Below, in pieces: positions 7,633 to 53,509 of a DNA stretch of 64,000 nucleotides. The translations under genes and the position numbers were made by a program. Below the pieces are notes generated by a model. That model was not told where the DNA came from and ran no database searches. It worked only from the letters and a program-made list of their open reading frames with translations. Within the stretch, counting starts at the first letter, position 1. The number at the start of each line of letters is the position of its first letter. This DNA comes from Forficula auricularia (Eukaryota; Arthropoda; Insecta; Dermaptera; Forficulidae): contig JALMQS010000321.1 of assembly GCA_024734495.1 (NCBI GenBank), positions 124,001 to 188,000 of the forward strand, given 5' to 3'.

Positions 7633-7739
7633 ATCCTATTATAAACTTTCAAATTCCTTAAAACATTGAGATGAGAGCATCACTCGATATTCCAGGTATT
7701 TAGGATTATAAAGCTAAAGAAAAAATTGAAAGAGTTTGT

Positions 7740-7746
7740 ACTCACC
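7740..7746 (-). promoter_or_regulatory. 5' splice site of the Kazal exon
   Basis: GTGAGT directly after TGTG on the minus strand; splits a Gly codon in phase 1 and excludes the in-frame intronic continuation that otherwise ends at 7714. Confidence 0.7.
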
Positions 7747-8064
7747 ACATTTGCCATGGTATTTAACTTGAATGTCCTTGGACTGGCGACAGGATGCCAT
7801 GTTGAGGTGACAGAGGTCCGGGTAATCGACGCCATCTGATCCGCAGACAGCTCTTGAGCCAGAATGGTCCCCAAAAGTGGGACAGGATTCGGGACATTGG
7901 CACTGGGCAGAGAGTCCATCCAAAGAAGGGACACAACGGGCCCCATAACGACATTGGTGGCTGATGCACGGGTCTTGAGTTTCGGCTGGGAACACATAAC
8001 AACCCGAAACAACAGTGAACAACGGGGATAACAAACAGAATGACATCAATGCAGCAATAACCAT
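7746..8064 (-). CDS. First coding exon of agrin/follistatin-like Kazal protein
   Basis: This exon encodes a secreted, cysteine-rich extracellular module. I start at the ATG at 8064 because it opens a clear signal peptide (MVIAALMSFCLLSPLFTVVSG), ending just before CYVFPAE. Then comes a follistatin-like EGF-type half (DPCISHQCRYGARCVPSLDG) followed by a Kazal domain with the typical CGSDGVDYPDLC core and the closing HGKC. The exon ends at a strong donor (TGTG|GTGAGT, intron from 7745), in phase 1, as is usual for extracellular modules. Kazal domains of this kind inhibit serine proteases or act as structural units in agrin and follistatin-like matrix proteins. Only one module is here, so agrin-like is an inference from the FOLN-Kazal pairing; downstream exons should lie left of the exon, possibly outside the window. 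Confidence 0.78.
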
Positions 8065-9250
8065 GACGAATTCACCAAAATCCCTTCTTAAATATATCAC
8101 TGGCACTTTAAAAGTCTACTTAGTTCTTAAATCCATTAAAAAAAATCACCAACAAATCAGTTTTTTTTCACAATTTAAACAAACAAAAAGTTTTTATGAA
8201 TATAAAAATCAATGGAAAATGTATAATATTTTAAAATTTAATATATAATTAATATAAAAAAGATCATCCTTAATTAAAACATATTCTATTTTGCCAATTC
8301 GTATAAACTATCAACACACATTTTTATTATTTTATAATAAACTATATAAATTAAAAAATAAATTAATAATATTATTAATTTAGTAATCCATTTCATGATG
8401 AAATGATAATTAATTTTCGATGTATCTTTAATGAAGAATTAATTGTAAAGTATGTTTTTCATGACTTTGATTGTTTCCCCCGAGAAGGAATTTACTTATT
8501 GGAACAAACTCGAACGTTTTTAATATTAAAAATTCTTTAAAACACTTGTAATTTAATTTACTCATTTTGTGAACCTCGTTCTATGAATAAATTATATTTC
8601 ATTGATCGTTAAAAATACGAATTGACTTAAATTTTTTTTAATCAAGTTTTTTCTTCATTTAACCAATAAAAATTCTTCTTTAAGCGATGTAGTAAGATGT
8701 GGGTAAATTTTACGTATTCTCTCTTGAAGAAATTTTATGATATATTGTTAAAATTCATGTTTTTAACTTTTTTTTTTCTAGATAGCGTCGTCAGATTTAT
8801 GAATATTTTTTTTTTATTTTTTATTTAATTCATCTGAAAAAGAGAAACAGAATCATTTAATTGAAAAATGGAAAAGTATAAAAATAGAATAAATTAGCTA
8901 AAAAATATGAGCAATTTTTCTGTATTTGGAATTTAAACATTTTTTTTTCTAAAGGAAAAAAAAATAATATGGAAATTATTGCGGAGTTTTAACAATTCAC
9001 TCACTCTCTATTATACTCGTTTAACCCTCATTCTTTATTATTATCATATCTCTATTCATATATTTTTAACGTTACGAGGAAAAAAAGTATCGATAAATTA
9101 TAAATTCCAAATTGACATTTACAATGTGCATCCATTGAAGTGAACAAGATGTACATTTAAAGTTTGCTTAATCGTTTATAAAACACAAGATGAGCATTTT
9201 ATCAAGGAAAAGCTTCTATATGCCAAATAAAAAAAATTAGTTAAACTTCT
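8065..9250. other. AT-rich region upstream of the Kazal exon
   Basis: Should hold the 5' UTR and promoter of the Kazal gene if the exon at 7746-8064 is the first coding exon. No confident TATA or initiator is visible in this AT-rich sequence and no other gene is seen. Confidence 0.35.
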
Positions 9251-11403: not shown

Positions 11404-12335
11404 TAGGGTGTTTTTTTTAGAGGTATAGAACTTCGAATTGAAATAAAACACAAGAAAATCGTTTTAATGTCCGTCAATTTGGCTTTATTGGAAGGATAAT
11501 TTTATGCCATTAATGTTTAAATATGATTTCGGGCATGTGGCCGCCGCGGCTGGCTCGAATAAATCCAATTCTACAGGTCCAATTTTCAACCACTTTTTCG
11601 AGCATATGGGGCCGTATGTTGGCAATAACGCCACGAATGTTGGCTTCCAAGTCCCCTAACGTTTCTGGTTTGTTGGCGTAGACGAGCGACTTCACATATC
11701 CCCAAAGAAAATAATCCAATGGTGTCAAATCACACGATCTTGGTGGCCAATTGACAGGTCCATTCCGCGAAATTATGCGCTCATCGAATGTTTCCTTCAA
11801 TAAATCGATTGTGACGTGCGCTGTGTGGCATGTAGCGCCGTCTTGTTGGAACCACAACTCATCCACATTCATGCCATCCAATTCGGGAACAAAATAGTCG
11901 GTTATCATGGCTCTATACCGGTCTCCATTAACGGTAACTGACTCTCCAGCATTATTTCGGAAGAAGTATGGCCCAATGACTCCACCAGCCCATAGAGCAC
12001 ACCAAACAGTCAGTTTTTGTGGATGTAATGGCGTCTCAAGGGTCTCATGTGGATTCTCTTCACTCCAAATGCGGCAATTTTGCCAACATTGGAAGCCAAC
12101 ATTCGTGGCGTTATTGCCAACATACGGCCCCATATGCTCGAAAAAGTGGTTGAAAATTGGACCTGTAGAATTGGATTTATTCGAGCCAGCCGCGGCGGCC
12201 ACATGCCCGAAATCATATTTAAACATTAATGGCATAAAATTATCCTTCCAATAAAGCCAAATTGATGGACATTAAAACGATTTTCTTGTGTTTTATTTCA
12301 ATTCGAAGTTCTATACCTCTAAAAAAAACACCCGA
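11404..12335 (-). mobile_element. Tc1/mariner (DD41D-type) element with inverted 3' end
   Basis: Flanked by TA on both sides (11402-11403 and 12336-12337), with ends TAGGGTGTTTTTTTTAGAGG and its near-perfect inverse. The terminal inverted repeats are about 250 bp, far longer than normal, because the left and right arms both contain the 3' coding end of the transposase. The remaining single-copy core is the middle of the gene. Uninterrupted R1 copies elsewhere show the empty site. Confidence 0.85.
11510..12085 (-). pseudogene. Truncated DD41D mariner-like transposase
   Basis: Encodes the C-terminal half of an IS630-Tc1-mariner DDE transposase, the enzyme that cuts and rejoins the element at TA. 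Visible landmarks: a WCALWAGGVIGPYFF strand, QQDGATCH with the second catalytic Asp, and CDLTPLDYFLWGYVK with the third. I count 41 residues between these two Asp residues, which is the DD41D spacing known from the insect rosa-like group. The first catalytic Asp and the DNA-binding N-terminus are absent: the upstream side is replaced by an inverted copy of the gene's own 3' end, so the open frame continuing to 12235 is antisense there. Not autonomous. Confidence 0.8.
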
Positions 12336-34298: not shown

Positions 34299-34769
34299 TG
34301 TAATGAAATAAGCACCCCTTGGCCCTTATATTCATAATCGGCATATAGCTTGCCAGGTTTGTTTTATTGTTTCTTTTAGTAGGTGCAGTTGGCAGTCTGT
34401 CATTGCTCCCCGCCCCGTTGCTATCATGAGTTGCGCGTGGAAGGCTATCTCGACTGGCGGAGTCAGTCAGCCGGAGGCACGCTAGCGGACACAAACTCTA
34501 TGACTCAGCTGATGCACGCTGTCCACCATTATTGTTCACTTTCTTTGTTAATTAAACTTATATTAAATTCAGTCACTTTACACACACACAGTTTCAACTT
34601 GTTTCAATCGCTGTATTCATTGTCTTTCTTTACTTATATACATAATTATTCTATTACTACACATTGTACAAATTGATTATTCTTCGTTGCATAAATTAAA
34701 TCTTTTCTCTCAAAACTTCTATCTATTATTCCAGAGTGCTAAATATACCATTACACAATAAAATCCTAA
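34299..34769 (+). repeat. 5' LTR
   Basis: 471 bp, begins TGTAATGAAATAAGCACCCC and ends near AATAAAATCCTAA. The 97-codon frame inside is a chance LTR frame present in both copies. Confidence 0.85.
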
Positions 34770-34790
34770 ATTGGGCCTCACCCAGATTTA
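34770..34790 (+). promoter_or_regulatory. Probable primer binding site
   Basis: TTGGGCCTCACCCAGATTT starts one base after the LTR and contains the TGG expected for pairing with a tRNA CCA end. The tRNA is not identified. Confidence 0.45.
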
Positions 34791-34985
34791 ACATAAGTAG
34801 GTTAAATCGCCACATGGAGGACCGCACCGATATGACGAATGAAACAAGTTCAACCTGTGTGTGTTTGTTGTAATTAATTATCATTTTATTTTTTTAGTCC
34901 AAAATCTTGTGATATAATTGGCGTGAAAGGCCTAATTAATTTGATTTATTTTTTTAATAGTGATACCATCTGTCCTGAAATAACA

Positions 34986-35535
34986 ATGCCGTCAATCGCA
35001 GAACTGTTGGAAGAAGGAGAGCAACAACCATTGGCACACTCCTCGGCGTTAAACAACCTCGACAGCCAACCAAACCAGGCCCAAATGGAGACGATATCAT
35101 GTGAGTTGCAGGGCATTTCACAGCCCAATATTACACAGAATTTTTCACAACCTAGTCTCCCACAAACACAAATTGATATGGCACAAATAACGGCACTGTT
35201 TAAGGGCTTAGAGAGTAAAAATGAATAGATACAAATGGTTCAATAAACTGCTTAAAAATCGATTTAGAAAAGAAAATGGATAGCAATATGAATACTTCAA
35301 CTATTAACATGGCGGGTTTAAGGACTGAAATGAAGGAAATGGGTAAAGACCTAAAAAGTCAAATAGATGGGCTGGAAGGCAAGGTAGACTATTATGTTCG
35401 GGACAGGGAACAAAGGAGAAGGGAGGTTGACGAGATAAAACTTGAGCAGGAAAACCTCGTAAAACTATCCTTTCAGTCCCATGCTGTAGCAATTGAGATA
35501 AAGGGTCAAAATTATAGTGTTCCCGAGGTCCCGGT
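34986..35535 (+). pseudogene. gag-like region, broken in two frames
   Basis: A frame from the ATG at 34986 (MPSIAELLEEGEQQPLAHSS) runs to a stop at 35226, Gln/Asn/Ser-rich as in gag N-termini. A second frame (35276 on) is a coiled-coil-like segment (LKSQIDGLEGKVDYYVRDRE). No zinc knuckle or major-homology-like region is seen, so most of gag is lost. Gag would form the particle. Confidence 0.5.
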
Positions 35536-35556
35536 CCATTTTCAAGAGTCTTTGCG

Positions 35557-36140
35557 GTGGCCCTTTGTGAAACCAGGACAAAGAGTCTATCCCAACAACT
35601 GCTGCCTCTGGAGGATGTGCCTGAGCCCGCATCCTCTCTAGAGAGGCGACAGTTACATGAACTCTTAAATGAGTTCCAGGATATATTTTCCCCCGAGCCT
35701 GGGTGTAAGAAGGGCTACCAACATGTGATTGAAATAACTGATGTAGTTCCTTTCAAGACCAAAACCTACCCGATTCCCATAACCCTTCTAACTGATCGCG
35801 GAACTCAATTCACCTCTAAGAAATTTCATGATTTCATTGGTGAAATGGGCACTGAATTGCGATTTGTCGCCATCCGCAATCAACAGGCCAACCCGGCTGA
35901 GCGTACCATCAAAGAGTTAAACCGGCTTTTTCGTGCTTATGTGCACCATAACCATCCAAAGGTACTGTCATCATTACATTGACAAGAGTTTGTCAAAAGT
36001 TCTTCCTACTGTATGACGGCCCGTTCCGAGTGGCTGAAATCCGCCCCGGGGTACGTATGTATTGGAGACCACCCGTGGTAAAAAGCAGGGTGTCTACAAT
36101 ATCCGGTTATTAAAACGATTCTACCCTCGCCCAGAGCAGT
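35557..36140 (+). pseudogene. pol remnant: RT start joined to integrase core
   Basis: The frame reads the segment just before the RT palm (LNEFQDIFSPEPG ... VVPFKTKTYPIP) and then, without a break in frame, integrase core sequence (LLTDRGTQFTSKKFHDFIGE). About the whole RT, RNase H and integrase N-terminus are therefore deleted at about 35780. The DRGTQF strand keeps the second integrase Asp; the catalytic Glu region is NPAERTIKELN. After 35982 the frame shifts; the GPFRVAEI part of the integrase C-terminal module is in another frame. Function lost. Confidence 0.75.
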
Positions 36141-38190
36141 AACCTCAAAGAAGGTTACAAACCACACGCTAATTCAGTGTGGGGCTTGCTTCTAATGAAT
36201 TCTATATTTTCTTCTTTTTCCCCCCCTTCTTTTTTTAAAATCCCACTATTTTTCATTATTTGTAAAATTTGTAAATAATTTTGTTTATTTTATATTTTTT
36301 TATTCTCTTATACTTTAGAGGTAATTCAATAGTCTGTCTGTCTCTTAATAAATTTTGTTAAAATTTAATTAAGTCCTTTTTTTATTTAAAATTAGGAAAT
36401 TTAAAAATTTTCTTTTCTATAAAGAAAAATCTTTAATATAATTAAGATTTAAAAAGTCAGTCTGTCTCTTTCTAAAGAAAAATAAAATTCGAATAAATAT
36501 TTCTTTGTCGTCAAATTGATGAATTGTAGTTATAATTTCATCAAGTCATTTTTTATATGAAATTGAAATTTAAAAATTCATTCTATTAAGAAAAATCCTT
36601 ATATAATTAAGATTTAAAAGTCCGTATTTTTCTTCCTAAAGGAAAATACATTTCAAGTAATTATCTCTTTATCCTTCAAAAATAATTTTTTAAGTTTTCT
36701 AGTTGGAAAATTTAAAATAATATTATAATCTTTACTATAATATTTTGAAATTTATAAAGTCTTGATAATTCCAAAAATTTCAATATAATAATGAATCTAA
36801 TCCTTATCAGTAACAGATAATTTTCATTAATTAGTCATAAAGAGATAAGCCTAATCCTTGAATAATTAAAGTTTCAAGTTAAAAGAATCAATTGAATTGG
36901 TTCTAATGTAAATTTATAATTAGTTAATTTCATTTTACTTACAAATACTTATAATTGTATTTTTTGACAATCTGTCAGTCTGTCCACAAAAATTGAATTA
37001 TCTCATATTATTCTTTAAATTATCAACTCTTTCTTTCGCGTGATAAAAGGCTCACATCCGTTAATATGAAATTCGTTTGTAGCTAATTCCATATTCCGCT
37101 CATTTTCTAACTCACGTTAAACCTAGGTAATTTTCCAATGGATAATAATTCTAATCTACACTATGCTTGGTATGGTGCTGGTTATTCAAACTAGTCATGG
37201 TCCACCGATCGACAAACTTCAGCTGAGTCCAGTGGAGTATTCTCGTAGCAAATTCTGCAGGCTGATTGGCCATCCGACGGGCGTAGCCTGAGTCGCCTGA
37301 AGGCAAGCGGCAAAGTCCCATGGAGTAAAACAAGCCTATAGATACAATGTCTGCAACTTTATCAAAATGTTTTCATTTCTATATTTACTTTTATTAATCA
37401 ATTGCCGAAGCAAAATTTATTCAATTCTGAAAACAGATATCAAATGATATAAAAAAAATATTTGGTTCAGTTGTTATGGGGACCACTAGTATATTTGTAA
37501 TACTAGTAAAATTTTTTATTTACATCGAAGTTAACGCTATATCCAAGCAAGGTACCATACAATTGTTCCGTAGTAAGTGCTGCGTGGAACTACTGAACAG
37601 AAGTATTTGACTGTATGAGTAAACAAACCAAAGGTGTGTTAATCAAATGATTAGGTTCATTCATTTTTTATATGAAGAATGCTCCATCTAATTTTTTATT
37701 GGACAATTCTTTAATAAAGTCTGGATTCCATTATCTAAAAATAAAGGGTCGAATCCCGTTAGGGACATTTTTTTATTTAATTGTTTACAATTGAAATTTA
37801 AAACGATAATGGTTAGATATCCGCCTGTTAGCCAATTATTCTATTAGTAATCAATATTAAATTTCTATAGTTCAACAAATTTTTTTATGGATGTTAAATT
37901 ATTTCAAAACATTTATTTGTGATTGAGTGAAATCTCCGCTCCGAGCATTTTTATTTAGTTTATATACAATTTATTTTGATCAAGAATTAATTAAATAATT
38001 AAATGCAACCCACCTTAAATAATGAGTTCTATTAATAACAAATGCAATCTACAAAAGCCTAGTCTAGCTATTTTCGTGAATTTCCGAGTATATAGGAGCA
38101 TCTATGAGAGTAAATAACTTCCCGCTCATTATTCTATGTTTATATAGGCAGTTTTGATATATTCCCAAACAAGTCCAATTTGTTTATTGA
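36141..38190. other. Non-coding interior of the LTR element
   Basis: AT-rich, with CAGTCTGTCTGTCTC-type runs at 36330-36990. A GC-richer patch at 37170-37330 (GCCTGAGTCGCCTGAAGGCA) is not recognised. Confidence 0.45.
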
Positions 38191-38199
38191 ATGCATAAC

Positions 38200-38263
38200 A
38201 AGTAAAGGTCAGCATAGTTGCCTTCCAAGCAGTTGGTACGGGTTCAAATCCCGCCAAAATGAG
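38200..38263 (+). tRNA. tRNA-Gly(TCC)-like pseudogene
   Basis: GGTCAGCATAGTTGCCTTCC followed by AAGCAG and a T arm CGGGTTCAAATCCCG closely resemble arthropod tRNA-Gly with anticodon TCC. The D arm is two bases short and the acceptor stem does not pair, so it is a decayed copy or a SINE head. Confidence 0.55.
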
Positions 38264-38798
38264 ATGCATTTGTCAACAAACATTCTTGCAATCCTTTTTC
38301 TATAGTAGTCTATTTTATTGAAAGTCTCTTTCAAATATTTTTTGTATAACTACATTTAGACAGTCGTTCCAAGGGAACAAACAAACTAAGGGTTAATAGT
38401 CATATCAAATAATTTAAATCCTGTGGCCTGTTAACTGTGAATAAAAGATCTGTGTTGGGAAGTGAAATGTTTTGCAGCCTCACGAAGGTTCTCTAAACTT
38501 TATAAGGCTCTATAATCTGAGAGCCATGGTTGTGTTGTTTATTATTTTTGATCAATCAAAGAATTCAAGGACGGATGGTCGCTATTAAATACGCGTATTT
38601 TAATTCTTTAATTTAATGATTATTTTGATTAAATATTTTTACATTAATTTTTCACTAATTTTTTTATAATTTTTATTTTATTAATCGCAAAAAGAAAGAG
38701 CAAAAGTGAGATAATGTGTTGAGGTTGCTGGTTATTGGCGAGTTGATGTTGTGGAAGCGAGCGGTCTAAATTCTGCCATGCTTTAATGGTTTAATATT

Positions 38799-38850
38799 GT
38801 AAGTTGAGTATAATTGTTTTTTTATAAATATTTAATTTTTTTGTTTTCAG
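38799..38850 (+). other. Possible 52-nt intron
   Basis: GTAAGT donor and a T-rich tract ending TTTTTGTTTTCAG, between two GC-richer blocks. Could splice a subgenomic transcript of the element. No long frame on either side. Confidence 0.3.
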
Positions 38851-39053
38851 TCAAGGTCATTAATGGTCCAGTTTAAAGAATGTAGAGCACTGTTGAGTGT
38901 TCATCCTGCGTGATTTTTTGAGTGGAACTGGAATTTGAAGCCAGTTTAAAAGGACGTTCCGCTATGGTCGTGGGTCATTGGCGTGTGTGTGGGACCGGAG
39001 ATTCGTTGTTGTCAATTCCCCCCCCCTTTTTTTGCTGTGTGGAAGATGGAGAA

Positions 39054-39186
39054 AAGAGGCCTAAGAGCCTAGTTATTGGCGGCTAAGTCCGCAGGGCATA
39101 GACCCTATTGAGTGTAGTGAAGAAGGCCTAAGAGCCTAGTTATTGGCGGCTAAGTCCGCAGGGCATAGACCCTATTGAGGAATGAG
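39054..39186 (+). ncRNA. Two tandem copies of a triple-hairpin RNA element
   Basis: A 67-bp unit, repeated from 39061 and 39128, holds three short hairpins with six-base loops: AGGC/GCCT (loop CTAAGA), GCGG/CCGC (loop CTAAGT) and GGG/CCC (loop CATAGA). GAGGCTTTAAAGCCTC at 39256 adds another. Lies 0.6 kb before the 3' LTR; could be a packaging or transport element. Structure only. Confidence 0.4.
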
Positions 39187-39778
39187 CTGACTGCAATCCC
39201 ACCGGGACGAGTTCTGGAGAAATGGGAGGCGGGCCATTCACTCTGAGCAGTGGAGGAGGCTTTAAAGCCTCGTAAATTATATTAAATTTTGTGCCCAATT
39301 GGAGGCGTTGTGGTTGGCCACCCCGACAGCTGTATTCAGCTGTCTAGCATCCACTCTGGTTCTGATTTGGCAGCGGCTCGTTTTGAGGACATGCTAGTGT
39401 CCGCCCTGTAGGCTTCAGAGACCACAGGGTAGGGCTGTGCGCTCTTAACAGCCATCCCGAATTCCCTTTTTTGTTTGACAATGAATCTTTGCTCCCACGT
39501 CTTGGCCGTGACGGGCGCTTGTTGTGGTGCGTCTGGCCCATACTGGTGGATCTGGAAAGTTCCGTTCCGATTTGAAACCAGTCATGTCCATTCAACACCT
39601 ATACATTCATTGTTATTTTTTATTGTTATTTTAACGTAGCTTCAGTACAGTAGATTTTCTTATGTGTCAATATTATTCCATGAAAGGAGGCATTTGAATG
39701 CTGTCTGAAGGCTGACTAAAGCCATTAAAATTGTCGCTACTTAATTCTGTGAGTGGCTCCAGTTTTAATGTTTCCGGC

Positions 39779-39786
39779 CGGGGGGA
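39779..39786 (+). promoter_or_regulatory. Polypurine-like tract before 3' LTR
   Basis: GGGGGGA directly before TGTAATG. Short for a primer tract, but at the correct place. Confidence 0.45.
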
Positions 39787-40257
39787 TGTAATGAAATAAG
39801 CACCCCTTGGCCCTTATATTCATAATCGGCATATAGCTTGCCAGGTTTGTTTTATTGTTTCTTTTAGTAGGTGCAGTTGGCAGTCTGTCATTGCTCCCCG
39901 CCCCGTTGCTATCATGAGTTGCGCGTGGAAGGCTATCTCGACTGGCGGAGTCAGTCAGCCGGAGGCACGCTAGCGGACACAAACTCTATGACTCAGCTGA
40001 TGCACGCTGTCCACCATTATTGTTCACTTTCTTTGTTAATTAAACTTATATTAAATTCAGTCACTTTACACACACACAGTTTCAACTTGTTTCAATCGCT
40101 GTATTCATTGTCTTTCTTTACTTATATACATAATTATTCTATTACTACACATTGTACAAATTGATTATTCTTCGTTGCATAAATTAAATCTTTTCTCTCA
40201 AAACTTCTATCTATTATTCCAGAGTGCTAAATATACCATTACACAATAAAATCCTAA
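39787..40257 (+). repeat. 3' LTR
   Basis: Same sequence as 34299-34769 as far as I can compare. Followed by TTAGTTCATCTAACGTTAAC, cassette DNA. Confidence 0.85.
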
Positions 40258-45489: not shown

Positions 45490-46954
45490 TTACTTTTGTA
45501 TTTATTTTAATAAATAATATAACAATCAATAATATTTTTTTCTTTTATATATTAGCATATACTTCAAATTTAAATGCATATTTTAAATATGTAAATTTCG
45601 ATAGTCAATAAAGATGGATGAGCTGCAAAATTCAATAAATAATTGGAAATCTTTTCGAAAAATTGAAAAAAGATTTCGAGCATACAATCTTGGAAGTTTT
45701 TCTATTTTTTTGTTCCCTCTTCTAACTTTACAACCATTTACTAAACTCCCTCATCAGTCTTGTGACATCTTTTCAATTTCCACTACTATTTGTCACTCAT
45801 TCATCTCATCCCCACCTCCTTCATGTTTTACTCCATCTACTTCCCGCTCCTATTCATATATATAGGCTACCCTTCTAGACCAACACATTCACACAAAACA
45901 TACATAAACTCTCGCAATATTGTAAAAAGTTTAAAATTTAATACGCAGGTAGGATATTTGGATTCTAAATATATCAAAACAAAATTAGTTTAATTACAAC
46001 GCTTCGTAGTTTTTATTTGAGACATTTTCAATCTTTAAAAATTGAATTGATTGTTTCATGTTAGTCTTATTATGGTAGTTCTTTCACAAATGCAAAAGTT
46101 CAAGAAGTCTTCGAAACTTGCAATATAAGTCATTAAAATCATAATAAACACACTTTTAAAATTTGAAGACGATTTACCACACCAAACATGAAATAATTGC
46201 AATTAAAAATGAAATTTTTGTGCATATCGGAAAAATGGTGGGAAAATTATCATTATTTATTTTTTTCTTACTGAAAGTCTTACACTATCTTGGTGAAAAA
46301 CTAATATTTGTTAGAATAATATGTTATACCGGAGTAAATTTAAAAAAGAAAAAAATTGAAATTATTTACCACGTAGTTTTGATAAAAAACAAAAAAAAAC
46401 TTATTTGGGGATTAATTTTTGTGGAGGGGATATAAGAACAGTCGCTTGGAAACGATCCGGCAACGTTTGCAGCGTGAGTATTTAATATGGCGGAATAAAA
46501 GAAAAAGGGACGAAAATATGAAATAATTAAAAATTTTAAACAAAATACTTAGAAACTGGATTTGGCATAAAATGACATGAAAAAATAGTGTGAGAAGTAC
46601 AGTCACGTTAAAAAACATAGCCTAAAATTGTAATACCCTTCATATATGTATAGCCTGATTACGAGGCTAAAACTTTTTATGTGGATTGTCGCGAAAAAAC
46701 TACCTTAAATATTTATTGCTAAAAAATTCACACTGTCAATCAATGTAAAATAATCGATTTTAATAAGACTAACAGTCAATTTAAGAACTAGAAATAAATC
46801 GTCGCAATTAGATTAATTATGTTTTGATTTTGCTTACGTCTAAATACACTGTTCTACAAAAAATTTCTCTCCGTAAACCTAACAAATTTTGAGATATTAT
46901 CGGTCAAAATGACGAAAAAGGCCAAATTTGACCTATTTTCGAGTCTCATTAAAT
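45490..46954. other. Non-coding stretch up to the gap
   Basis: Short open frames here are low-complexity. No gene supported. Confidence 0.4.
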
Positions 46955-47054
46955 NNNNNNNNNNNNNNNNNNNNNNNNNNNNNNNNNNNNNNNNNNNNNN
47001 NNNNNNNNNNNNNNNNNNNNNNNNNNNNNNNNNNNNNNNNNNNNNNNNNNNNNN
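46955..47054. other. Assembly gap (100 N)
   Basis: Exactly 100 N, the usual placeholder for a gap of unknown length. It removes the 5' part of the retrovirus-like element to its right. Confidence 0.99.
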
Positions 47055-47057
47055 TTA

Positions 47058-47792
47058 GTGGACCAGGTCTCCCACTTCGTACAGAGGGATGGACACGATT
47101 GGGACAAGTGGCTATACCCATCGATAGCGGCCTACAACGGCACGCCACACTCATCCACCGGGTTCTCGCCCAACAAACTTATGTTTGGACGGGAGCTTCG
47201 ATTTCCGTTCAGCTGTCCCTTAGAACCGAAAACCAACCCTCTAGAGAAGGGGGACTATTTAGAAGAATTGGAGGGGCGGTTCGAGAAGGTCAATGAGGAA
47301 GCCCGGAGAAGAGACCAGCAGAAGAGGGAGCGGAGGAACAAACAAAAGAACCAAGGACGGCGACAGAGGTCCTTCAACCAAGGGGACTGGGTCTATTTGT
47401 TTGTCCCCGCCCTGAAACCGAACCACGCGAAAAAGTTCCACCGGCCGTGGAGAGGCCCCTACCGAGTATTAGGGCGGAAGTCGGATGTGACTTATGAGCT
47501 CGAACTGAGACCCGGCGAGAAGACGGTGGTGCATATTAACCGAATGAAGCCGGCGGGACCCAATTACCACCCAGAGCCAATACAGGTACACGAGGTAGAG
47601 GGCAACCTATTCGACCATCCGCCACGGGGAGCCATCGGGCATTGCGTAGCCGCTGACCTACATATGTCAGCCGGGATCGCCGTCGACTTCAAAGAAAAAT
47701 TTGGGGGGAAGAGGACTTACGTTCCCAACATCCGGAACCAGGACGTTGTCTCGTCCTCCGGAAGAACGACCGGACAGTCTACTACCTGGTGA
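47058..47792 (+). pseudogene. Integrase C-terminus fused to first half of a macrodomain
   Basis: Residues 1-70 are the end of the integrase core (YPSIAAYNGTPHSSTGFSPN, LMFGRELRFP), which inserts the cDNA; the catalytic Glu is in the gap. Residues 70-110 are a basic coiled stretch. Residues 115-170 are the GPY/F module (KFHRPWRGPYRVLG, HINRMKP). From about residue 180 the same frame enters a macrodomain: GNLFDHPPRGAIGHCVAADL then MSAGIAVDFKEKFGG, the two adenosine/ADP-ribose-binding segments of the TARG1/OARD1 type. The frame is lost near 47740-47755 and ends at 47792 in unrelated residues. The remaining half lies in the overlapping frame. First codon shown is where the sequence resumes after the gap, not a start. 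Confidence 0.82.
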
Positions 47793-48691
47793 CCAAGGCC
47801 CGTAGTATGGGGAAGCCGAGCTACCCGGAGGTGAGATCAGCCATAGCGGACATGGTTAGACTGGCCTTGAGGGATCAAGTGGACTCCGTGGGTCTCCCCA
47901 AGATAGGGTGCGGACGTGACCAACTAAAATGGGTCAAAGTAAAGGGAATTCTGAGGAAGGCAGTAGCCGGTACCCCTATACACATCACGGTCTACACACC
48001 ACCCCCAGTACAGCCAGATAGCACGCGCCCCGGCGGCGTGGACGCTAGCTACGAATCCCGGACTTTCACTTCGTCAAGACAACCATCCTTCCGCCTAACA
48101 TTACCATCCAGGGATGGCCCCACTCGGATAAATATCAATTACCGAGCGCCGACGACACCCGAACAGTCACCAACACCAATATCAACCCCATCCCGTGAAA
48201 GTTCGACAGAACCTGAGGCCGAGGGCGACTCGTGCTGGAGCCCTCAAGGTACACCAAGCCCCGTAGCCAGGTCACCTTACGCCTTAAGACCTCGCGGCCC
48301 GGGCCGGTCAGAGGAAATTCAATTAAGCCCGGGCGGAGGAGCAGAGGGGAGCACGGAGAGAGTCCTTCCCGTAACGGTTCCTCAGGATTTAAGTTCCAGT
48401 GAAGACAGGACGCTCACGGTTTCGGACGACGTAAGTATTCCTCCTAGTCCGGAGCCAACGATGGAACATTCAGGGTCACCGGTAAGCGACAGATGCTTGG
48501 GAGGGGATAGGGTCCCCCTAGCTCAGGGGAACCAAGGGCCAAGTCCTCAACCTGGACCTTCAGGAATTGCGGGGGGAACCAGGGGTACGGCCGGCACTTC
48601 ACGCGGCCAGGGTGTAGATAGGGGCGTAAGAACTAAGGGAAGACCGCCGAAGAGAAAGCTTTTCAATTTTAGCGTAGGTAAGAAAAAATGA
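47760..48691 (+). pseudogene. Second half of macrodomain plus Pro/Ser-rich pol tail
   Basis: Reads TVYYLVTKARSMGKPSYPEV and then VGLPKIGCGRDQLKWVKVKG, ending at ITVYTP. In the human TARG1 family the catalytic pair is a Lys in the YYLITK-like strand and an Asp in the IGCGxD loop; both are present here. From about 47995 the frame is Pro, Ser, Thr and Glu-rich without structure, with SPYALRPRGPGR, a motif common near the end of gypsy pol. Stop at 48689. It is linked to the previous frame by a one-base register change around 47745; whether this is mutation, assembly error or ribosomal frameshifting cannot be told from one copy. The 5' limit given is approximate. Confidence 0.8.
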
Positions 48692-48708
48692 GTGAGGTCG
48701 CGGAATCT

Positions 48709-48722
48709 AAAATTTTGTTGCA
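48709..48722 (+). promoter_or_regulatory. Possible env splice acceptor
   Basis: AAATTTTGTTGCAG followed by GAGAGT, just after the pol stop; gypsy envelopes are usually made from a spliced RNA. Confidence 0.4.
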
Positions 48723-50283
48723 GGAGAGTCCTGGATCGTGACCGCAGAATTCGGCCTGGCGGAGTTGAAGGGAAGGGAGGACCAAATCCGGAGGCAGCTA
48801 AAGGCCATAAGGGATTTTGTCCCCCCTACCCATGGACACTTAGAGTCCCCAATATCGTTGGAGGAGGATATCCAACATCTGGTGGTAGAGTTGAGCGGAC
48901 TGTAGACATTATCACGAGTTAAGATATTTGCTACCTCCGGCGAGGAACAAACGCGGTCTAGTCGATGTAGGGGGTAAAGTCTTGAAATTTCTATTCGGAA
49001 CGCCCGATTCGGATGATCTCATCATAATTAACGATCAACTAAGTCCCCTCAATGAGGCCCGCGCTGAAATTATTCGTCATTTTAAAAATCAGATAACAGT
49101 ACTAGACCGGGTTGACAAAAAGACCAATTTTAAATTTTGATAAAATACAGGAGTTAACCCGTGTTATTCTGAAACCTGCTGACACGGCTAGTTTTAATGT
49201 CAACGCGATGGAAGCCGAGATTGAAGGGCTACGCGAAAATTTTTACATTGGATCAACTTCACGGTGCAAGTACGCCGCCTGGGGCAAAGCATCCAGTCCG
49301 CTCACAATTGGATGATGGAAATCCTGGGGATGGTTCAGCCGGCTGCATCCGGCAGGTTGGATGCCCGACTGATCAATCCCAGAGAACTACTAATACTAAC
49401 ATTAGAATTAAGCCAGGGGATACCCACCGGACTAAAATGGGTCACCCCGAGTGAATTAGAGAATATGTTTAGGTTGTATGACTGGTGCACCGTCCAAATG
49501 TATAGTGTAGGTAGTGCAGTGCGATTCGTGATCAACATTCCCCTAAGGGACGATCGTCTGACAAGTGATCTTTTCAAGGTACACTTACTACCCACTATTC
49601 CCCATCGAACCTGCCTCAGCGGGCTGTTCTTCCGGCAGACTCAGGATCTGGACAAATACTGCCGATGGACAATTGTCCTGGGTTCTGTCGGAGACGAATG
49701 GCAACCAGCGTGGGCGGGGCCCAGATGGTTTTACGGCCTGGACGATACCCGGAACTCTTACGTCCGATGCCGGGTTCACGACGACGAGGTCCAGCACAGC
49801 GAGACAGCTCTGAGTCGGGCCGGGTGCTACGAGCTGAAGGATGGGTGCCGGCTAAGAACGGATCTCACTCTGATCCTTCCCTGTGGTTCTACCACTAGCC
49901 GGCACCATGTCAATGCTCCCACGATCTTCGTTCCCCCCAATGTCGACTTGGTCCAGCTACACCAGCTTCCGAGAGACCCACGCGAACTAAGGGAGGCGCT
50001 AGACGGCCTCGATGCACTCCGAGCCGAACGAGGGTGGTCGAGGATGGAATTACCCAATGAACGACTACGCGAGGAAGCCGACCGCCTGTCACGCAGGGAG
50101 CGCCTGCAATATTTTACATTACCAATCGGAGGAGGTACCCTGCTACTGGTCCTGGGGGGAACTGCCGCCTTTCTTTGGTGGTGGCGGCGTCGAGGGTTAC
50201 CACGGCCGACTCAGGAGCATCCCGAACTACAGCAGGAGGACGACCACGAGGACCCTCCGGGAGTAGTGCCTTCGTCAGTGTAA
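48723..50283 (+). pseudogene. Envelope gene, baculovirus F-like, frameshifted
   Basis: A class I-like fusion glycoprotein of the gypsy/baculovirus F family. The first segment (to about 48910) is open in one frame and ends in a stop. The second (48928-49140) has a furin-type site RNKR (after 48954) followed by GLVDVGGKVLKFLFGTPDSD, the fusion-peptide region typical of the family. The third (49112-49250) and the long last segment (49264-50283, about 330 codons) are in other frames; the latter has Cys-rich ectodomain sequence, a membrane span GGGTLLLVLGGTAAFLWWW near 50130-50185, a basic stop-transfer RRR and a short acidic tail. At least three frame changes make this copy unable to give one protein. 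Confidence 0.75.
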
Positions 50284-50358: not shown

Positions 50359-50372
50359 AAAACGGAGGGTAG
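50359..50372 (+). promoter_or_regulatory. Polypurine tract
   Basis: AAAACGGAGGGTAG directly before the LTR TG. Confidence 0.55.
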
Positions 50373-50849
50373 TGTAAATATGGGCGGTGCACCAACCATT
50401 AGATATAAGGACAATACCTGGTTATTTTCCGTTATTTCTTTTAAGAAGGTCTAATTTGTTAAAACGGAGAATATACCAGGAATTCGCTGATAAGCGAATC
50501 TCACGGCGTCGGCCAAGCGCGAGTGTAGGACAGGGGCTAGCGGGGAGCGGAGGAGGGGAGGGGTGGGGCAGCAGACGCCGGGCGCGTGGAACGAGAGACC
50601 GGGCCTAGCTTGGAGAGGAATAAGATCGAGAGCGGGGCTGAGCGTTGACGCAGAGAGTTTGAGCTTAGGGAATCGTGCAAGGATTAGGGGTTGGAAAGGG
50701 GTGAAACGACTGGTGGAGTGAGTAGTGAAATAAAACGTGAACCAGGAGTATACAACTCAGGGTGTGATCATCCTATGAGGATATCAAGGGTGTTGAGAGG
50801 AGATCAGATGACGGCCGTCGAATAGCGTGAGCTCACTAATATTATTACA
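50373..50849 (+). repeat. 3' LTR of the env-bearing element
   Basis: Begins TGTAAATATG and ends ATATTATTACA, so the tips TGTAA/TTACA are inverted. About 477 bp with an AATAAA at 50729. GC-rich centre. The 5' partner is not in the window, so the borders are by inspection. Confidence 0.65.
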
Positions 50850-52589: not shown

Positions 52590-53440
52590 TCAAGGATTTC
52601 TAAAATGTATTTTTAAATGTTTTATGAGAGTTGACCTTAGTGCGAAGGCATTTGAGCAATGAGCACATTTAAAGGGTCTCTCTCCGGAATGTATAAGTAA
52701 ATGGCTATCAAGGGTGGACTTGCGTGCAAATCTATTGGGACACTCAGTACATTTATAAGGTTTCTCCCCCGTATGTATTAGCAAATGATTATCGAGATAG
52801 TACTTCTGGGCAAATGTTTTGGGACACTCACTACATTTATAAGGTTTCTCTCCAGTATGTATTCTTAAATGTTTTGTGAGATTAGATTTACATGAAAAGC
52901 TTTTTTCACACTGATCACAGGCAAAAGGGTTTTGCCCGGAATGTATCAGAAAATGATTATCGAGAGTGTTCTTTTGTGCAAATATTTTGGGACACTCAGT
53001 ACATTTATAAGGTTTCTCCCCCGTATGTATTAGCAAATGCTTATCGAGATTAAACTTCTGTGCAAATGTTTTGGGACACTCACTACATTTATAAGGTTTC
53101 TCTCCAGTATGTATTCTTAAATGTTTTGTGAGATTAGATTTACATGAAAAGCTTTTTTCACACTGATCACAGGCAAAAGGGTTTTGCCCGGAATGTATCA
53201 GAAAATGATTATCGAGAGTGTTCTTGTGTGCAAATCTTTTGGGACACTCAGTACATTTAAAAGGCTTTTCTCCGGAATGTATCCATAAATGCCTTGTGAT
53301 TAAATATTTATATGAGAAGCGTTTGTCACAATGGGGACATCCAAAGGCCCTCTTACCGGAATGTACCAGCAAATGTCGTGTTAACTTATATTTTGATATA
53401 AATTTTTTTTGACATTCTGTACATTCGAAGAATTTCTGAC
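52590..53440 (-). CDS. C2H2 zinc-finger protein, last exon (ten fingers)
   Basis: Encodes ten consecutive classical C2H2 fingers joined by TGEKPYKC-type linkers, the hallmark of DNA-binding transcriptional regulators of insects. First finger FFECTECQKKFISKYKLTRH, last FKCAHCSNAFALRSTLIKH, then a short tail IHFRNP and stop. Fingers 4-6 and 7-9 are a recent 252-bp duplication: FACDQCEKSFSCKSNLTKH occurs twice unchanged. The exon starts after TTCATTTAG at 53441; the codon split (phase 1) fits the exon upstream. An upstream half-finger (QHFLIHLG) visible in frame before the acceptor is intronic if this splice is used. No repressor domain (KRAB, BTB) in the window; a ZAD could be in missing upstream exons. 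Confidence 0.85.
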
Positions 53441-53509
53441 CTAAATGAATGAGAAAATGTTGAATTATTTTTCATAATGGTTTCAATGGATATTAAGAAT
53501 TAAATTTAC

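Follow-up and report, generated by a model that had tools for sequence, protein, structure and literature searches.

A TARG1/OARD1-type macrodomain, split by a frame break, behind the integrase of a decayed gypsy-type retroelement

The 3' part of an envelope-carrying retroelement

The 64,000-nt stretch of DNA analysed here (the window) contains, on its forward strand from 47055 to 50283, sequence that is well supported as the 3' part of a decayed, env-carrying Ty3/gypsy-type retroelement in an animal-like genome; a probable LTR then runs up to about 50840 (Table 1). The edges of the element are marked by base composition, since it forms a GC-rich stretch within a window of mean GC 0.321: the GC content is 0.276 at 46000-46954, 0.56 at 47055-48691 and 0.523 at 48692-50283. 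A 100-N assembly gap truncates the element upstream, and beyond the gap lies AT-rich, unrelated-looking DNA; of the element, the window holds only the final part of the integrase and what follows it, and neither protease nor reverse transcriptase was seen here. As assembled, the copy is broken in both the macrodomain and env, and its 5' part is lost in the gap.

Table 1. Features of the retroelement and its surroundings in the window
Feature	Position	Strand	Basis or remark
Assembly gap, 100 N	46955..47054	.	GC jump from 0.276 to 0.56 across the gap
Integrase core end and C-terminal GPY/F module	47055..47579	+	Pfam Integrase_p58_C at 47454-47552
N-terminal half of TARG1/OARD1-type macrodomain	47589..47723	+	Integrase frame; phmmer to OARD1
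Stretch between the macrodomain halves, across which the reading frame breaks	47724..47755	+	Open-frame limits
C-terminal half of macrodomain	47756..47998	+	Adjoining frame; phmmer to OARD1
Pro/Ser-rich C-terminal pol tail with ARSPYALRPR	47999..48691	+	C-half frame; stop at 48689-48691
env fragment, furin-like NKRG followed by a fusion-peptide-like stretch	48895..49137	+	Motifs by eye; Pfam below cut-off
env main fragment, hydrophobic stretch near the C terminus (by eye)	49225..50283	+	Baculo_F above cut-off
Probable 3' LTR, approximate bounds	50372..50840	+	GC falls from 0.512 to 0.278 after 50841

The C terminus of the integrase matches the Pfam family Integrase_p58_C (PF22938) above its cut-off (E 7.3e-11) and SH3_Tf2-1 below the cut-off (E 8.5e-5). 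An RGPYR motif, recognised by eye, gives it the GPY/F module of Ty3/gypsy integrases, and the preserved part is 47% and 35% identical to two gypsy pols. No chromodomain was detected with Pfam in 47055-47789 or 47756-48115 (E up to 10) or in 47999-48688 (E up to 0.1), and the pol tail (47999-48691) matched no Pfam family. The main env piece matches Baculo_F above the cut-off (E 4.2e-7), as in env-bearing gypsy elements with a gypsy/baculovirus-F-like envelope; the shorter fragment stays below the cut-off with both Gypsy env (E 0.00041) and Baculo_F (E 0.00051), and six stops separate the two fragments in their common frame. The integrase and Baculo_F matches thus flank the macrodomain, in agreement with a preliminary description of this DNA that had placed such a domain between integrase and envelope; the peptides that it quoted were also found where it had located them. 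The probable 3' LTR comes after a purine-rich stretch (by eye), and no repeat partner for it was found within the 64-kb window, the 5' side of the element being lost.

Elsewhere in the window, two identical 471-base direct repeats (34299-34769 and 39787-40257), about 5 kb apart and beginning TGTAATG, are probably the LTRs of another LTR element, a recent one. Between them, at 35521-35982, an integrase is matched weakly (E 9.3e-5, below the cut-off), and a tblastn search of this second element (34299-40257) with the macrodomain pieces gave no match. The reverse strand carries a C2H2 zinc-finger array of about ten fingers with a 252-base tandem unit (open frame 52590-53471), a Kazal domain (E 9.1e-12) in an open frame (7717-8115) that is probably a host-gene exon, and a long open frame (11510-12271) that reads by eye like a mariner-kind transposase and had no Pfam match at E 0.1.

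Identity and conserved residues of the macrodomain

Sequence comparison identifies the region directly behind the GPY/F module as two collinear halves, in two frames, of one TARG1/OARD1-type macrodomain. The N half, which starts about a dozen residues after the integrase profile match and in the integrase frame, matches human OARD1 (C6orf130) with a phmmer E value of 9e-8; the best chain other than OARD1 (E 0.33) is not a macrodomain by name. The C half matches residues 65 to 145 of the solved OARD1 chain (E 1.1e-14), and the best chain other than OARD1 reaches E 0.011. OARD1 is therefore the best match over both parts, and the domain type proposed in the preliminary description was confirmed. 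Of its span, originally given as 47580 to 48000, the domain itself stands, whereas the limits are amended to 47589-47998 and the domain is split by a frame break as assembled. The PHROG phage profile phrog_335 was likewise matched collinearly, at profile positions 56-98 by the N half (E 0.00015) and 126-205 by the C half (E 6.8e-10).

Profile searches gave more uneven results. A hidden Markov model of 50 OARD1-like proteins scored the C half at 83.5 bits (E 1e-27) and the N half at 2.5 bits (E 0.014), E values that refer to a search of two sequences only; the low N-half score is probably due to the many rows of the 50-protein set that start later. Pfam Macro, which was scored on the halves apart, a procedure that lowers the score, reached 18.7 bits for the C half (E 0.0017; cut-off, 22 bits) and did not match the N half; Pfam Macro alone would miss this domain at its cut-off. 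NCBIfam DarG also matched the C half (E 3.3e-9), at 36.5 bits far below its cut-off of 250 bits. Of the profile comparisons proposed earlier, the one with Pfam Macro is thus weak, while the comparison with OARD1 is strong.

Catalysis by TARG1 uses Lys84 and Asp125, as stated in a passage of PMC9411070; a passage of the review PMC7050489 prints the second residue as Glu125. Both are kept in the window, as had been suggested from the sequence: the equivalent of Lys84 is a K at 47795-47797, the equivalent of Asp125 is a D at 47918-47920 within GCGxD, and their spacing of 41 residues is the same as in TARG1. The GCG loop of TARG1/OARD1 is also kept in the C half. In 68 OARD1-like rows, 16 C-half columns reach at least 90% conservation, and the window domain keeps 12 of them; the others show replacements of T by S, L by I and F by V, as well as one of L by R, which places an R immediately before the catalytic Asp, where an L is near-invariant elsewhere. 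Of the 11 N-half columns with at least 80% conservation in 92 rows, 80 of which are viral, 8 are kept; the other three change from I to V, L to Y and Gly to Ser, so that the loop reads MSAGIA instead of the conserved MGAGIA, whose Gly is near-invariant. It is plausible, judging from these residues, that macrodomain activity has been retained; however, activity may be lost, because 4 of 16 near-invariant C-half positions are changed and the MGAGIA Gly is replaced by Ser.

Fusion to pol, capture and donor

The N half is in frame with the integrase (frame open from 47055 to 47789, without a stop) and the C half with a tail of 230 residues (open from 47657 to 48688, without a stop). Both outer junctions of the macrodomain are therefore in frame, the single break lies inside the domain, and the two pol frames around it have no other stop over 1.6 kb. 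An error in sequencing or assembly may account for the break, and a programmed frameshift within a domain seems unlikely. An intron was also considered as an explanation for the two frames and rejected: judging from OARD1, the halves lie about as far apart as expected, and an intron would not fit between them.

The GC content at third codon positions (GC3) is 0.674 in the integrase, 0.667 in each macrodomain half and 0.496 in the tail, compared with 0.395 and 0.591 in the short and main env pieces and 0.289 and 0.463 in the zinc-finger and Kazal-domain frames of the window. A recent insert of AT-rich host sequence would differ from the integrase in GC3, whereas an insert from a GC-rich donor would not, and the match could also reflect such a donor. 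Taken together, the frames, the GC3 values and a relative that lacks the domain (see below) support the conclusion that the macrodomain is fused at this position and is not there by chance. An artefact, whether a chimera made in assembly or a stray copy of OARD1 that landed in this copy of the element alone, is highly improbable: an assembly gap lies 0.5 kb upstream and a second copy was not seen, but integrase, both halves, tail and env all lie on one stretch free of N, with in-frame outer junctions and matching GC3.

Relatives were sought with the integrase plus the N half as the query among proteins of about 470 to 1490 residues (2340 candidates), and four pols matched with E values of at most 0.001. 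The best of them, P0086 (1354 residues), is 46% identical over 69% of the query; we take it to carry protease, reverse transcriptase, RNase H and integrase, as its precomputed Pfam domains indicate. Its GPY/F module is followed by an acidic, Pro-rich tail containing ARSPYALRSR, to be compared with ARSPYALRPR in the window tail. The alignment of the two tails scored 74, against a mean of 51 for shuffled sequences, and 9 of 500 shuffles scored as high; for sequence of such low complexity, this result is only suggestive of homology. The tail gave no signal against P0087 (330 of 500 shuffles).

Neither macrodomain half was detected above chance in any of the four pols (P0086 to P0089): the best phmmer E value for the C half was 0.24, the N half returned no row, and the best match of the OARD1-like profile, in P0089, was at chance level (E 0.093, 0.8 bits), all these E values applying to a search of four sequences. 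Because P0086 runs from GPY/F into the tail without a macrodomain, the simplest reading of these sequences is that the domain was inserted between the two; alternatively, P0086 may have lost it. In the viral contigs, no second macrodomain-bearing retroelement was found with the C half alone, the integrase plus N half, an env piece or an integrase alignment. The integrase alignment found no relative in a prokaryotic contig collection, nor did the C half alone in a protein collection of limited length range; the missing relatives in these collections are weak evidence of rarity.

With a profile built from the C half and human OARD1, 84 OARD1-like proteins and 85 viral contigs with such domains were retrieved, and 80 of the contigs were kept (L001 to L080, from IMG/VR; contigs of 4 to 394 kb, open reading frames of 119 to 188 residues). 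The first tree was built on 81 C-half columns from 70 of the 84 proteins (proteins with numbers higher than P0075 and those of fewer than 80 residues being excluded), the 80 viral open reading frames and the window row; after removal of identical rows and rows with over 20 gaps, 68, 69 and 1 rows were left (138 in all). In this tree, the window row stood beside fish OARD1 rows at open forks, no starred set held it, and protein and viral rows were not cleanly apart (nine label changes). The highest identity to the window C half among the 137 other rows was 43% over the 81 columns. A second tree, with 47 protein rows (up to P0050) and 35 viral rows, from which L002 was left out because it had fallen among the protein rows, separated viral rows from the rest with 99/95 support, a split that partly reflects the choice of rows.

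In both trees, the window row formed a very long branch nearest to the fish OARD1 rows without support, and no row was recognised as insect OARD1. On the second set of rows, the approximately unbiased (AU) test rejected neither a place for the window row inside the viral set (p 0.484) nor a grouping that kept 21 vertebrate-type rows together without it (p 0.276). From these comparisons, we lean towards a cellular animal donor of the macrodomain. The earlier proposal of a captured host hydrolase is therefore supported in part: the pol that lacks the domain makes capture the simplest reading, while the host as donor is a leaning from an unsupported tree.

The viral domains merit a comment of their own. 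The Lys column is K at a frequency of 1.00 in the 69 distinct aligned viral rows, and the catalytic Asp is present in all aligned viral rows, a result that is partly built in, since one of the two scan patterns demanded Asp. The TARG1-type macrodomains of these 85 contigs are possible erasers of DarT-type DNA ADP-ribosylation. In addition, a contig from a Desulfobacteraceae metagenome-assembled genome (L081) contains a stretch 44% identical to the window C half, which is about as close as the OARD1-like proteins.

The very long branch is also compatible with the possibility that this lineage once took up an OARD1-type message, from a host or another source, and has since carried it without function, as are the changes at conserved positions and the fact that only one copy, a broken one, was seen. 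Nothing shows selection on the domain, because the single copy is broken as assembled. Against such a passenger, the pol frames around the break lack further stops, the dyad is kept, and the integrase-like GC3 fits long residence (a GC-rich donor would fit as well), over which an insert of some 135 codons should decay if it were useless; we regard a passenger as unlikely.

Proposed function and comparison with known systems

The whole claim rests on one broken copy. We favour over all rivals, with a probability of roughly 0.42, the reading that a captured hydrolase keeps the integration complex free of ADP-ribose, a function that we infer. TARG1 frees Asp and Glu residues of proteins from ADP-ribose (as summarised in part of PMC7050489); it also removes ADP-ribose from phosphorylated DNA ends, its D125A mutant being inactive on DNA (in the passages seen of PMC5725667), and reverses thymidine-linked ADP-ribose on DNA (likewise from a passage of PMC8501950). 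In mammals, L1 is silenced by SIRT6 through mono-ADP-ribosylation of KAP1, according to a passage of PMC4695847.

In intact members of the lineage, which we infer to exist, the macrodomain would be made as part of Pol and would enter the particle with the integrase. Using the Lys/Asp dyad, it would work as a mono-ADP-ribosyl hydrolase. It would strip ADP-roibose-type marks, that of ADP-ribose itself, from the element's cDNA, at its ends or on its bases, or from acidic residues on proteins of the complex and of chromatin, and host ADP-ribosylation might then be unable to block integration or to silence the element. Carried on Pol beside the integrase, such an eraser would come into contact with the ends of the cDNA, with proteins of the complex and with the target chromatin. 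We know of no ADP-ribosylation defence against invertebrate retroelements.

The domain might instead be a reader that tethers the integrase to ADP-ribosylated chromatin, at damage or sites of active PARP1, and so chooses the insertion site in the manner of a chromodomain. Such a role would suit its location behind the integrase on the C-terminal side of Pol, where chromoviruses carry their chromodomain (in the part seen of PMC12440569), the inclusion of readers besides erasers in the ALC1-like class (in that of PMC7050489) and the changes at conserved positions, one of them beside the catalytic Asp. However, the domain keeps both catalytic residues, although a mere reader could dispense with them, and among the 11 solved sequences with a match of E 1 or lower, none is named as a reader such as ALC1 or macroH2A; we regard tethering as unlikely.

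The host has its own ADP-ribose erasers for integration nicks, which counts against another idea, namely, that the domain clears PARP-made ADP-ribose at integration nicks and gaps and thereby aids joining, without any counter-defence. TARG1 is tied to the DNA damage response (a passage of PMC7050489) and clears DNA ends (one of PMC5725667), but direct evidence for such help in repair was not found here, and we consider it unlikely. A bolder reading is unlikely as well. In it, the animal host attacks reverse-transcribed DNA by ADP-ribosylation, and a gypsy lineage with env therefore brings in a DNA-ADP-ribose eraser together with its integrase. Bacteria would offer the parallel, in the DarT-type attack on DNA and the eraser that undoes it; here the eraser would be a captured TARG1 domain.

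With the ALC1-like hydrolase TARG1/OARD1, the window domain shares the best match of both halves, the Lys84 and Asp125 equivalents and the GCG loop; it differs in being fused behind a retroelement integrase, in four near-invariant positions of the C half and in being a broken copy. The DarG antitoxin, which erases ADP-ribose from DNA, resembles the C half through a match below the family cut-off (E 3.3e-9), but it keeps only the Lys of the dyad, whereas the window domain has both Lys and Asp (DarG as described in a passage of PMC7050489). Errantiviruses and other env-bearing gypsy elements share the Baculo_F-type Env (the Gypsy env match being below its cut-off); unlike the window integrase, which has GPY, errantiviruses lack the GPF/Y motif (PMC12440569). 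In the main text of that one paper, no word begins with "macro."

The earlier statement that no gypsy element with a macrodomain had been described agrees with the open-licence papers listed by searches that named the domain, among which none reported one, and with the titles and beginnings of abstracts of the papers listed by broader open-licence searches, in which none was named. However, epsilon-like endogenous retroviruses of fish with macro-domain open reading frames have been reported (Basta et al. 2009, as cited in a passage of PMC4977317). Like the present element, these are reverse-transcribing elements that carry a macrodomain; unlike it, they are vertebrate and carry the domain in additional open reading frames, whereas the window has a gypsy-type Pol fusion, a comparison that relies on a one-sentence description in PMC4977317. 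Macrodomain-carrying retroelements are thus already known, and it is the fusion to a gypsy-type integrase that appears to be new.

Macrodomains of RNA viruses are known to counter PARPs. A TARG1-type domain on an integrase would move this conflict to the nucleus and to DNA, and it would allow a test of whether LTR retroelements of invertebrates are restricted by ADP-ribosylation. The substrates of TARG1, DNA ends (PMC5725667) and bases (PMC8501950), could be exposed by the pre-integration complex, as far as the portions seen of these papers describe them. The Ty3/gypsy chromoviruses offer a parallel, in that they too have a captured chromatin-signalling module on the C-terminal side of Pol (in the part seen of PMC12440569); the window differs in having an enzyme-type ADP-ribose domain, followed by a long tail.

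In conclusion, the chromodomain reads histone methylation, and the macrodomain described here would be a second kind of captured module on the C-terminal side of the integrase. The fusion suggests a new way for envelope-carrying elements to handle ADP-ribose-based host responses.
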